From: a virus
IMG/VR virus record: IMGVR_UViG_3300036820_000332
Coordinates: 1 to 43,825 of that record
DNA: 43,825 bases
Reading direction: 5' to 3' (one strand)
Below the pieces are notes generated by a model. The model worked only from the letters and a program-made list of their open reading frames with translations. It was not told where the DNA came from and ran no database searches. Below, in pieces: positions 16,359-38,791 of the stretch. The position numbers and the translations under genes are program-made. Within the stretch, counting starts at the first letter, position 1. Every line of letters begins with the position of its first letter.

Positions 16359-16859
16359 ATGCGTTTCAATCCATACGATGACGTGATCGTGCAGCCCGTG
16401 ACGGCGAGCTCGGTAGCGATCGAATCGCTCACCGGCAGCACCGCTGTCACCAGCGACGCCTACGATACCTCCGTTGGTATCGAGTCCCTGATGGTTCACG
16501 TACGCGCCGAGATCGCGTCCGGCTCTCCGTCGGCAGCGACGGTTGCGTGGGCATTGCAGGAAAGTTCGTCCTCCGGGTCGGGCTTCGCTGCGGCCAACGA
16601 CAACACCGGCACCGCGATCGGCGGGACGCTGAACGTCCACACGACGGCTCAGGACGCCTACGCGCGCATTGAGGGCATCATGCTCAACAATGGCGCGGCA
16701 TCCGGTGCGCAGGGTGGCCGTAAGCGCTACCTGAAGATCGTGCTCACGCCGGCCTTCACGTCCGGTTCGAGCCCCGCGATCTTGGCATACGCCGAGTTCA
16801 TCGGGTCTCCGGGCAACGGCATGCAGCTTCCAGTCCGTTCGGCGGTGTCGAACACGTAG
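16359..16859 (+). CDS. putative capsid decoration / structural protein
   Basis: This 166-residue beta-rich protein begins MRFNPYDDVIVQPVTASSVA and ends FIGSPGNGMQLPVRSAVSNT. It directly follows the capsid region and precedes the connector, the usual place for a head decoration protein, and it is Ser/Ala/Gly-rich like cement proteins. No membrane segment or catalytic motif is visible. The start is ATATG with no Shine-Dalgarno sequence. The assignment rests on synteny and composition. Confidence 0.6.
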   Translation: MRFNPYDDVIVQPVTASSVAIESLTGSTAVTSDAYDTSVGIESLMVHVRAEIASGSPSAATVAWALQESSSSGSGFAAANDNTGTAIGGTLNVHTTAQDAYARIEGIMLNNGAASGAQGGRKRYLKIVLTPAFTSGSSPAILAYAEFIGSPGNGMQLPVRSAVSNT

Positions 16860-33175: not shown

Positions 33176-33817
33176 TTATTTTCCGGCATCGTCTCATTTT
33201 TCCACTGGCATTTCCTTCAAAGGGTATACGTACAGGCATGCGCCAACATATACCTCTTGTTCGTATGTTCTGTTCGTATGCTTCCGCGCGCTGAAAGGCG
33301 CGGATTCCCTGCATTTCCGCCACCGTTCGCGCGCGCCTCCGGCCGCGACTTCCCTAAATCTTTTGTCCTCACTTCCTTCTCTCCGAGCAGGCCTATTCCA
33401 ACCTGCCGCGCTGCTGATCCGCCACACGTGCCCCGCCGCTAAAGCGCCGGTGCAGGTGTCGAGCTCCGCTTCGCGCGACAGGACAGATTTAGGGAAGTCG
33501 CGGCCGAGCACGCTCCGGTGGCGGCAGTTCCTTCAGTGATCCGTTCCGGCTGGCGCCGTCCGGCCTGCGGGCTATTGAACACGCCTCCGGCGCGTCCAAT
33601 AGTCCTCGCCACGGCCGTCCCCAGCCGGAGCCGTGCTCCGTTGCCCTGCGGGGCAAATAAGTGCCAATCCGGGGCAATTAAAATAGCGTCCGGTTCCGGC
33701 TCAGCGGCAGTCCGGCCCCAATTCGCAACACACCATAAAAATCAGGGCAGCGGAAGTTGCGCAGATTCAGCTTAGCGGTAAGCTGTAGGAAGAAATTATC
33801 AGATTAGCTTTCAGCGT
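33176..33817 (-). ncRNA. candidate large structured RNA / palindromic non-coding region
   Basis: No convincing gene fits this 640-base stretch, but it is dense in long-range pairings: 33218-33228 with 33249-33259; 33283-33289 with 33298-33304; 33340-33361 with 33485-33506; 33546-33553 with 33621-33628 enclosing 33572-33585 with 33589-33602; 33626-33631 with 33635-33640; 33641-33646 with 33651-33656; and 33768-33774 with 33779-33785. In the helix at 33572-33602 both internal mismatches are A-C on the plus strand, which become G-U pairs in a minus-strand RNA. Wobbles elsewhere are mixed, so the strand is uncertain. TGATAATTT (minus, 33801-33793) could be its promoter. An origin is the alternative. 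Confidence 0.4.
33340..33506. repeat. 22-base perfect inverted repeat
   Basis: Bases 33340-33361 are perfectly complementary to 33485-33506. After a three-base bulge, GTCCT (33365-33369) pairs with AGGAC (33480-33484), extending the stem to 27 pairs. The 123 bases between the arms contain a smaller GCAGG/CCTGC hairpin. No flanking target duplication is visible, so a transposon remnant is less likely. Confidence 0.85.
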
Positions 33818-35260: not shown

Positions 35261-35978
35261 ACTCCGAATACCTGCGGGGTGGGGCGATGACCCGTTGTCC
35301 AATTTCTTGGCTATAGCTCAGCGTAACCAACGTGCCACGTTTGCAAACTGCAAGGGCGAATATGAGCTCTTGCAAGAGATCGATTCCACTTTCATTCGGA
35401 TTGGCGAAAACCTCATCAACCCGCAGAACATCCTCTCCGCGAATATGTTTTACCGATCCCATTCGGCATATCGCGCCGCATGCGGCGCTAGCATCGCAGG
35501 GCAGGCTCCCGAATCCTTTGTGTTGCTACGGTCGTGCCTCGAATACGCAGGATACGGCCTATACATTTTTAGGAACCCGGAAGCCGGCTTCAAATGGCTC
35601 AATCGGCATCAGAGCGATGCAGACAAGCGTGCCATGCGAAACGAATTCAAAGCTATAAACATTCAGGCAGTCGTCGCTTCGGCCGAAAGGCGCCTTGGTG
35701 AGGTCTTCCAAGAGCTATACGAACGGTCGATTGATTTTGGTGGGCATCCGAACGTGATGGGCGTTTCGGGCAATATGTCCGCGAAAGACGAGGGTGATCG
35801 CGTTCAATTGAGTCACCATTATCTGCACGCCAACGACACGGGATTTTATATGGCGCTCAAGTCAACAGCACAGGTAGGAGCGACCAGCTTGCACATATTC
35901 CAGCATGTCTTCACTGCTCGATTTCAGATCCTCGGCGTTCGCGAGACGCTCGCAAAGCTGCGAACGAAGGATATCTAG
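35226..35978 (+). CDS. accessory helical protein of unknown function
   Basis: This 250-residue protein begins MNPASTKRVPIELRIPAGWG. The body is mostly helical (FVLLRSCLEYAGYGLYIFRN, then KWLNRHQSDADKRAMRNEF), with a second helical region near HYLHANDTGFYMALKSTAQV. It recalls proteobacterial hypothetical proteins with an all-helical fold, some of which belong to defence or HEPN-like groups, but the diagnostic residues are not seen. It starts with GTG after AAGGAA, so it belongs to the Shine-Dalgarno class and was probably acquired. Confidence 0.6.
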   Translation: MNPASTKRVPIELRIPAGWGDDPLSNFLAIAQRNQRATFANCKGEYELLQEIDSTFIRIGENLINPQNILSANMFYRSHSAYRAACGASIAGQAPESFVLLRSCLEYAGYGLYIFRNPEAGFKWLNRHQSDADKRAMRNEFKAINIQAVVASAERRLGEVFQELYERSIDFGGHPNVMGVSGNMSAKDEGDRVQLSHHYLHANDTGFYMALKSTAQVGATSLHIFQHVFTARFQILGVRETLAKLRTKDI

Positions 35979-36040: not shown

Positions 36041-36132
36041 GAGTGTCCGGCTGAGCGCCGGCCGGGAAACGGCAAGCTCAGTGCCGTCGTTATCGCGACG
36101 GGACAGCCCCCGTCGTTCTCATCCGGGCACTC
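36041..36132 (+). ncRNA. candidate structured RNA upstream of tRNA
   Basis: GAGTGTCCGG (36041-36050) and CCGGGCACTC (36123-36132) close a ten-pair stem with one U-G pair that only works on the plus-strand RNA. Inside, CTGAGC/GCTCAG (36051-36056/36076-36081) encloses GCCG-GGAAA-CGGC. It is followed by CCGTCG/CGACGG (36084-36089/36096-36101). GACGGG/CCCGTC (36097-36102/36109-36114) is a mutually exclusive alternative. This multibranch shape with a switch-like pair suggests a riboswitch, leader RNA or ribozyme-like element. No known class is recognised. Confidence 0.5.
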
Positions 36133-36146
36133 TTAACCTCATGCGA

Positions 36147-36218
36147 TGCAGGATCGTCTAACGGTAGGACACGCCGGCTTTGAACCGGTGGATGATGGTC
36201 CGAATCCATCTTCTGCAA
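36147..36218 (+). tRNA. tRNA-Gln (anticodon TTG)
   Basis: All arms fold: acceptor TGCAGGA/TTCTGCA, D arm GTCT/GGAC with AACGGTA loop, anticodon stem GCCGG/CCGGT with loop CTTTGAA (anticodon TTG at 36179-36181), and T arm GATGG/CCATC with loop TCCGAAT. The discriminator is A36218. The CCA end is not encoded; the next bases are C and then the ATG of the ATPase gene at 36220. The anticodon reads normal glutamine codons, so it does not indicate stop-codon reassignment. Confidence 0.93.
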
Positions 36219-36219
36219 C

Positions 36220-37500
36220 ATGCTCATCGGACACCAGTTCGCCACCGGCGAGGCGTTGAACCTTTCGGAGGATGACCGCGCCAGACATATTTATTGTCTT
36301 GGAATGTCAGGGTCGGGAAAAACAAATCTCATGCTCAACATGGCCCGGCAGGAGATCGAGCCCGGCCACGGCGTCTGCTTCATTGACCCGCACGGCGACG
36401 GCGCCCGTACCCTCTTGGATGCGATACCGGCCTGGCGGGTCAATGATGTCATTTACCTCGACCCCTCGGATACCGAACAGCCCATCGGCTTCAACCCGCT
36501 CGAATGCCACGACCCCGCGCGCCGGCCGCTCGTCGCCGATGGCGTCGTCTCGGCGTTTAAGCATGTCTTCGCCGATAGCTGGGGGCCGCGGCTGGAACAT
36601 TTCCTCCTGAACGCCTGCCGCACGCTCTTGGAGCAGGATGGCGCGACCTTGCTGGGCATCCCGCTGCTATTCCTCGATGCGAAGTTCCGGAAGGCGGCGG
36701 TGCGGCAGGTGCGCGACCCCGTCGTCCGCATGTTCTGGGAGCTCGAATACCCGAGCTATTCGGAGCGGCTCCTGAGCGACGCGCTTTCGCCTATCTTCAA
36801 CAAGATAAACCGGGTGCTCTCATCGCCCGACGTGCGCAACATCCTGTGCCAGCCCAAGAGCACGATAGACATGCGGGAAATCATGGATGGCGGAAAGGTG
36901 CTCATCGTGAACCTGTCGAAGGGCAGCGTCGGGGAGGGCAACGCGCATCTGCTCGGGGCGCTGCTGGTCAATGCGATCGCGCAGGCGGCGCTCTCGCGCG
37001 AGGACACGCCCAGCGAAGAGCGCCCGCCGTTCCATCTGTACGTGGACGAGTTTCAAAACTTCGCCACCGACAGCTTCGCGCTCATTCTCTCCGAGGCCCG
37101 CAAGTACGCCCTCACCCTCACGCTGGCGCATCAATTCCTCGACCAGGTGCCGGACGCCCTGCGCCAGGCCGTGTTCGGCAACTGCGGCTCGTTCATCTCG
37201 CTGCGCGTCGGTGCCGAGGATGCGCCGCTCGTTGCCAAGCATCTCGGGCTAGCGAACCCGCAGCGGGTGATGGACTTGGCGAACTACCGGGCCGTGGGGC
37301 GCTTCCTGTTGGACGGCGTGCCGACGAGCCCGACGCATCTGCGGCTGGAGAAGCTGCCGGTGCCGACCGATTCGCGTGCGGCGCAGATCGTGGCGAACAG
37401 CAGGAATACGCGGGGACGGCCGAGGGCGAGCGTGGAGGAGCGGGTGGGGCGGTTCCTGAAAGAAAAACCCCCGGCTCGTCGCCGGGGGTCATCCCATTAG
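36220..37500 (+). CDS. HerA/VirD4-type P-loop ATPase (type IV coupling-protein-like)
   Basis: This is a 426-residue protein. Walker A is GMSGSGKTN (28-36), followed by CFIDPHGDGARTLLDAIP and NDVIYLDPSDTEQPIGFNPL, signatures of the conjugative DNA-transfer ATPase family. Walker B is LYVDEFQNF (about 273-281), then TLTLAHQFLDQV. It lacks the N-terminal membrane domain of full coupling proteins, so it is probably a soluble hexameric DNA pump or helicase. The ATG lies two bases after the last base of tRNA-Gln. Such an ATPase beside a dedicated TerL suggests a plasmid-like or transfer function. Confidence 0.85.
   Translation: MLIGHQFATGEALNLSEDDRARHIYCLGMSGSGKTNLMLNMARQEIEPGHGVCFIDPHGDGARTLLDAIPAWRVNDVIYLDPSDTEQPIGFNPLECHDPARRPLVADGVVSAFKHVFADSWGPRLEHFLLNACRTLLEQDGATLLGIPLLFLDAKFRKAAVRQVRDPVVRMFWELEYPSYSERLLSDALSPIFNKINRVLSSPDVRNILCQPKSTIDMREIMDGGKVLIVNLSKGSVGEGNAHLLGALLVNAIAQAALSREDTPSEERPPFHLYVDEFQNFATDSFALILSEARKYALTLTLAHQFLDQVPDALRQAVFGNCGSFISLRVGAEDAPLVAKHLGLANPQRVMDLANYRAVGRFLLDGVPTSPTHLRLEKLPVPTDSRAAQIVANSRNTRGRPRASVEERVGRFLKEKPPARRRGSSH
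37462..37489 (-). terminator. intrinsic terminator for the minus-strand mini-gene
   Basis: On the minus strand ACCCCCGGC and GCCGGGGGT (37489-37481 and 37475-37467) form a nine-pair stem with a five-base loop, followed by a run of T (37467-37463). It lies inside the 3' end of the ATPase gene, just downstream of the mini-gene at 37497-37583. Confidence 0.75.
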
Positions 37501-37845: not shown

Positions 37846-37869
37846 GAGAATCAGGAATAGGAAAGTGGC

Positions 37870-38791
37870 ATGTCTAACGATCATTTACATTCCCATCTTC
37901 TATCAGCGAGGATGGACCGACTCGGATGGCTGGCTGTGTGAATATAAGCAGCGGCCTAGAGGCGTAAGGGGCCGATGGACGGTTCCCGCAGGCACGGGAT
38001 ATAAGCCGGGCCTATATACTTTCGCTGGCCTTGCCCCAGGGGCAGCTCACTGGCTTGAAGACGTGTTCTTCGCTCGCGTCGATAATTTGGCGGCGAGAGC
38101 TCACCAGCGGTTGCTTGCTGACGACGTGAACTTGGTGGGCGAGGCCAAGAGCGCGTGGTCGCGTTTCATCATGACCCTCATGTATCGGACACCGGAGGGC
38201 GTCGAACGAATAACGCGTCGCATGGCTGCGATGTTGCCGGAGACTTTAGTGGAGGCGCGCAGGAACTATCCGATGACGAGGCGCGATACCGATCCTCCCA
38301 CTTTCGACGAATTTCGCGGAGGGTTGTCTGACGAGGACGCCGTGCAAGCGGCGACGGTTATGGCCCTACAACGCCTCATGGATAGCGAACGCATTGGAAC
38401 GGCTTTGAATCGGATGGCGTGGGCTGTCATTCGCACGAGCCATTCATCGCCACCGTTGCTGACTTCCGATCGGCCTATCATCACCTCGAATGGCTTAGGC
38501 AATCCCGGCGCGTTCCTGATATTGCCGATTTCTTTTGATCGCATCTTCATTGCGGCGAACTCGATGGATACGATTGAGCGATTTCACGCGCAAGGCAACG
38601 ACTTCGTTAGCAAAGTGGATACGATGGTGGTGCGGCAAGCGCGGGCGTTCGTCTATTGCACAGATGAATCACGAGTGTCGTTCGTGTCAGAATATCTTGG
38701 CGAAAGGTTAGCGATTCCTCCCTACGACCAACATGCAGATTTCCACCAATTGCCCGCGATTGACGATTGGCTTGCTATACGGGCTGCATAA
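37870..38791 (+). pseudogene. DUF4238 family gene with N-terminal frameshift
   Basis: The body (about 300 codons) reads YIPIFYQRGWTDSDGWLCEY, then LYTFAGLAPGAAHWLEDVFF and the late LLTSDRPIITSN, a typical DUF4238 pattern. The start with a good ribosome binding site (AGGA, ATG 37870) encodes MSNDH in a different frame, and joining MSNDH to YIPIFYQRGW would restore the family N-terminus. Deleting one base, or restoring two, near 37884 would join them. A GTG at 37865 is in frame with the body but sits directly after the purine tract. It is either a recent pseudogene or a sequencing error. Confidence 0.65.

Follow-up and report, generated by a model that had tools for sequence, protein, structure and literature searches.

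Leaderless genes, tRNA punctuation and the tRNA-ATPase locus

One of the closest described parallels to the locus analysed here is the tRNA punctuation of mitochondrial genomes, in which tRNA genes adjoin coding starts and tRNA excision sets the 5′ ends of mRNAs. Leaderless translation in Escherichia coli, as reviewed, is favoured by a 5′ phosphate and disfavoured by upstream nucleotides (PMC9031893), and the leaderless genes of Deinococcus-Thermus possess a −10 region adjacent to the open reading frame (PMC12340547). The viral DNA considered here is the 43,825-nucleotide stretch of IMG/VR record IMGVR_UViG_3300036820_000332 (hereafter the window), in which a tRNA-Gln gene lies one nucleotide upstream of the start codon of an ATPase gene. 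As in mitochondria, the tRNA adjoins a coding start and its excision would set the 5′ end of the mRNA; unlike mitochondrial punctuation, the arrangement concerns a single phage gene and is not genome-wide, and would rely on bacterial-type host enzymes. The resemblance to the Deinococcus-Thermus genes (PMC12340547) is that relatives of this phage and Patescibacteria have a TANNNT hexamer 6–9 nt before start codons and few Shine-Dalgarno (SD) sites. The ATPase gene of the window differs from those genes in that its −10-like hexamer precedes the tRNA, and a short leader would need RNA cleavage.

The encoded protein resembles the HerA/FtsK superfamily, the TraD and IcmO coupling proteins and mad8 in having a P-loop, a C-terminal TraG-like region and an N-terminal segment that aligns from residues 3–4. 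It is unlike TraD and IcmO in its length of only 426 aa and in lacking the N-terminal region found ahead of the ATPase core, and its scores against the NCBIfam coupling-protein models do not reach their curated cut-offs.

The tRNA-Gln and ATPase genes

The junction consists of three features:

36147–36218, plus strand: tRNA-Gln gene, anticodon UUG (ARAGORN; Rfam RF00005)
36219, plus strand: single base C between the discriminator and the ATG, a 1-nt leader if the tRNA is 3′ processed
36220–37500, plus strand: gene for a HerA/TraD-type P-loop ATPase, 426 aa (Pfam, IcmO, HerA, PADLOC mad8, PHROG 5156)

ARAGORN calls a tRNA-Gln with anticodon ttg at 36147–36219, and RF00005 matches at 36147–36218 with 50.6 bits (E 4.5e-8). 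The gene specifies a cloverleaf with a UUG anticodon and a U1-A72 pair, an acceptor stem (TGCAGGA/TTCTGCA) paired at all 7 of 7 positions including one G-U, and the discriminator A36218, with no encoded CCA. Its T-loop, TCCGAAT, has C at position 55, where U is usual; the T-arm GGTCCGAATCC is also found in one patescibacterial tRNA-Gln (G399) with the same C, so that C55 need not mean decay. The original prediction placed the discriminator at 36218 and the ATPase ATG at 36220, and the Rfam match and the sequence agree with it; the end coordinate that it gave, 36222, marks where the start codon ends. The tRNA was considered as an attachment site and set aside, no integrase having been found in the window. 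The relative G003 has an apparent tyrosine-recombinase gene near its ATPase, recognised by reading the sequence.

The reading frame at 36220–37500 is open over 426 codons from the ATG at 36220–36222. Two Pfam models match above their cut-offs (DUF87, 28.8 bits against 23.2; TrwB_AAD_bind, 21.7 against 20.5), and there are further matches to PHROG 5156 (E 6e-48), IcmO, HerA and, over residues 4–335, PADLOC mad8 (E 5e-16). As regards the partner genes of an anti-phage HerA or Mads system, none of 3 neighbouring proteins matches PADLOC, in contrast to the mad8 and HerA matches of the ATPase. An AlphaFold model made without an alignment had a pLDDT of 36 and was unusable. A DUF4238 protein is encoded 3′ of the ATPase gene (window 37865–38791, plus strand; E 7.5e-25).

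A search of viral contigs with the ATPase protein returned no relative, and related ATPases were present in 6 of the 20 phage contigs recovered through the portal protein, those in the longer contigs lying about 10–13 kb upstream of the portal gene. The closest homologue, in G003, is 42–45% identical. No tRNA was found in these 20 contigs, several of which are fragments, and the tRNA-ATPase arrangement is thus not conserved, the tRNA having so far been seen only in this genome; a search of viral contigs for the exact tRNA 3′ end likewise gave no copy.

The start codon of the ATPase gene

Reading outward from the ATG in frame, the codons are AAC TGC TTC ATC TCC GAA TCC TGG and then TGA; this TGA, at 36193 inside the tRNA, closes the frame, and no in-frame ATG, GTG or TTG lies between it and 36220. 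Homology to IcmO/DotL begins at residue 3 and to the mad8 profile at residue 4. Since the frame is closed upstream without another start codon and homology extends from residues 3–4, ATG 36220 very probably marks the genuine start. Further in, the Walker A motif contains the next in-frame ATG, and TTG 36256 was rejected as a start, as homology extends 5′ of it and its sole SD-like match is 2 nt away. A start further downstream that is conserved in homologues, which would have told against the original prediction, was sought, and none is conserved in the window: the G003 ATPase appears to begin at a position corresponding to roughly residue 20, and the window lacks a start codon there.

No SD-like site lies upstream of 36220 (duplex energy +0.1 kcal/mol), and translational coupling from an upstream reading frame was discarded, the previous listed one stopping at 35978. 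The base preceding the ATG is C, against T at 83% of conserved starts.

Two features lie immediately upstream of the tRNA:

36134–36139, plus strand: TAACCT, a −10-like TANNNT hexamer and candidate tRNA-ATPase promoter, ending 7 nt before the tRNA 5′ end
36041–36132, plus strand: strong RNA fold directly upstream of the tRNA (MFE −49.5 kcal/mol, z −3.6)

The spacing of TAACCT to the tRNA is the commonest one learned from the phage relatives. Genome-wide, 1.8% of random plus-strand positions have a TANNNT 6–9 nt before them, and at this chance level of about 2% the hexamer is suggestive only as promoter evidence. Statistically, no promoter preceding the tRNA is strong, and a scan for the sigma-70 consensus found nothing. 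Because a TANNNT precedes the tRNA by 7 nt and is absent from the stretch 4–13 nt before the ATPase ATG, the simplest reading is that a tRNA-ATPase co-transcript is likely, beginning at or beside the mature tRNA 5′ end.

For the fold at 36041–36132, none of 200 shuffles was as good, and an Rfam search assigned it to no family. Just upstream of the G003 ATPase, a 404-nt region (L036 10381–10784, minus strand) also folds stably (z −7.4), and a comparison found no sequence similarity to the window region upstream of the tRNA. Elsewhere in the window there is an EGFOA RNA (Rfam RF02955; 32705–32814, plus strand; 50.2 bits, gathering score 37.7), and a very stable RNA fold at 33280–33660 (plus strand, z −8.25), in which no gene was identified, holds a perfect 22-nt inverted repeat (33340–33361 and 33485–33506).

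Start-site signals in the phage group and the probable host

The regions preceding start codons were set against a control, the regions preceding internal ATGs. Among the relatives, TANNNT stands 6–9 nt before 49 of 295 starts (about 16%; 5.5 expected; 2% in controls), T occupies position −1 at 46% of starts against 15% in the control, and 40–49% of genes receive a −10 under two fitted promoter models. When 65 starts of the window and its relatives were aligned, 83% had T at −1 and 3% an SD-like site. A tolerance of leaderless starts, which the original prediction supposed for this genome, is therefore supported for the phage group by TANNNT enrichment, scarce SD sites and T at −1. Many starts in the group have neither an SD site nor a −10 motif, the conserved gene at 16359 among them, which suggests that initiation may also take place internally and independently of SD sites, so that uncut RNA may be translated. 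Short inverted repeats stop 1–2 nt before the starts of the portal, major capsid and 27420 genes (window 5627, 14713 and 27420), and similar dyads precede the portal and capsid genes of some relatives.

The host is probably a member of the ultra-small Patescibacteria, as judged from prophage homologues, tRNA similarity, the absence of an encoded CCA and a shared start-site signature. Full-length portal homologues, 39–46% identical, occur in 4 of the 380 patescibacterial genomes sampled (G435, G428, G022 and G372), and prophage homologues of the portal, terminase or capsid are present in patescibacterial metagenome-assembled genomes (MAGs), in which binning errors are possible. The best matches of the window tRNA-Gln are patescibacterial tRNAs, and CCA is not encoded in 18 of 31 patescibacterial tRNAs, whereas all 19 of 19 acidobacterial tRNAs encode it. 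In patescibacterial genomes TANNNT reaches 29% against 6% in controls and T at −1 reaches 49% against 27%, with SD sites at background level. An acidobacterial host, raised by one MAG prophage (L273), is less likely on the tRNA, CCA and start-site data; among 396 genomes of Acidobacteriota, only one, a genome already part of the analysis, gave a full-length portal match.

Reading frames abutting tRNAs in other genomes

Viral contigs were scanned for a tRNA T-arm followed by an ATG 0–2 nt past the discriminator, giving at least 120 matches, and convincing tRNA-ORF junctions among the matches listed include L048, L056, L083, L112, L115 and L122, with others. In viral contigs not selected for this layout, 2 of 465 tRNAs had an ATG reading frame of at least 60 aa beginning 0–2 nt past the discriminator, and frames of at least 40 aa abutting tRNAs in this unbiased sample numbered 10, with 8.2 expected. 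A single tRNA-abutting start is uncommon, and not beyond chance.

Four contigs depart strongly from chance. Reading frames start against 8 of the 21 tRNAs of L145 (0.46 expected), 4 of 6 in L115, 4 of 7 in L089 and 3 of 4 in L267; L145, L115 and L089 came from the ATG scan, and tRNAs with the scanned pattern were omitted from the count. In several tRNAs of L145 the encoded CCA overlaps the start codon (CCATG). The layout is rare on the patescibacterial chromosomes sampled, with one clear case in 30 pattern matches read (L308, a 175-aa reading frame starting 2 nt past a tRNA-Ser). The original description of the arrangement as unusual for a phage thus holds only in part, given an overall rate at about the chance level, recurrence in unrelated phages and systematic use in L145, L115, L089 and L267.

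A cleavage model and its alternatives

Taken with the juxtaposition of the two genes, the very likely start codon, the lack of an SD site, the −10-like hexamer before the tRNA and the enrichment of leaderless-type starts both among phages of this group and among Patescibacteria, tRNA cleavage is a plausible source of a leaderless ATPase mRNA. In the model that we infer, which joins co-transcription, cleavage and translation of the cut product in the probable host, a promoter immediately preceding the tRNA (−10 TAACCT, 36134–36139) would transcribe tRNA-Gln and the ATPase gene together, and the tRNA would form nearly the whole 5′ leader of the ATPase transcript. Maturation of the tRNA 3′ end would cut after A36218 to leave an mRNA with a 5′ phosphate that starts C-AUG, which could be translated by the SD-independent, leaderless-tolerant system of the presumed patescibacterial host. 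The predicted C-AUG end with its 5′ phosphate would fit the requirements of leaderless translation in E. coli (PMC9031893). That co-transcription and a cut after A36218 yield a translatable C-AUG mRNA is put forward tentatively, at somewhat short of an even chance; of the readings considered, processing ranks first, followed closely by translation of the uncut RNA independently of an SD site.

Several observations argue against cleavage. The enzyme expected to make the cut is RNase Z. Some match to the RNase Z model TIGR02651 was found in 51 of the 59 Patescibacteria sampled (G022 and G222–G279), mostly short and with none passing the curated cut-off, and convincing RNase Z is thus scarce in this sample. 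The C at −1 and the absence of the arrangement from relatives also weigh against the model, as does the possibility that uncut RNA is translatable: conserved genes with neither an SD site nor a −10 imply that cleavage may be unnecessary for translation of the ATPase.

The last point leads to the foremost alternative, a serious contender that we hold to be possible without thinking it probable, in which the uncut tRNA-mRNA or a longer transcript is translated by SD-independent internal initiation, and the 1-nt spacing reflects compact packing after insertion of the tRNA, with no role for processing. Such a reading accords with the scarcity of SD sites and the many conserved starts that also lack a −10, with abutting starts that are about as frequent in the unbiased sample as chance predicts (10, with 8.2 expected) and with relatives that have no tRNA. 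It accords less well with a folded acceptor stem ending 2 nt from the AUG, which would impede ribosome loading, or with a −1 base other than the T typical of starts here; moreover, any tRNA maturation would cut the mRNA at or near its start.

A separate promoter was named in the original prediction as an outcome that would overturn it, and the candidate within the tRNA gene is weak:

36207–36212, plus strand: CATCTT, weak candidate −10 in the tRNA 3′ half, 7 nt before the ATG; not TANNNT

Such a promoter would yield a leaderless ATPase mRNA from about A36220 without tRNA processing, and its 7 nt to the ATG is the commonest leaderless spacing in the phage group. Ranked among control ATGs, CATCTT reaches the 94th percentile under a hexamer model and the 84th under a fuller 10-mer model, in which it falls below 0 bits; it also has no TGn extension, and its letters are dictated by the T and acceptor stems of the tRNA. 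This origin is improbable. Least probable, and very doubtful, is that the host cuts further downstream and trims, each transcript giving tRNA or ATPase mRNA and never both, a scheme that the scarcity of convincing RNase Z and the CCATG overlaps of L145 (where two products compete for the same A) would suit, but the window tRNA has no encoded CCA, and an exact cut before C36219 followed by CCA addition is therefore possible.

Implications

Extended beyond the window, the cleavage model would have tRNA 3′ processing create leaderless mRNAs in some phages, one of them with a patescibacterial host, and do so systematically in L145, L115, L089 and L267; this wider claim we regard as rather unlikely. 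The phages rich in tRNA-abutting genes are better test cases than the single ATPase gene, and for the latter the model predicts one precise RNA 5′ end. If true, it would connect oddly placed phage tRNA genes with the expression of genes that lack a ribosome-binding site in Patescibacteria, a group that is very large and for the most part not in culture.
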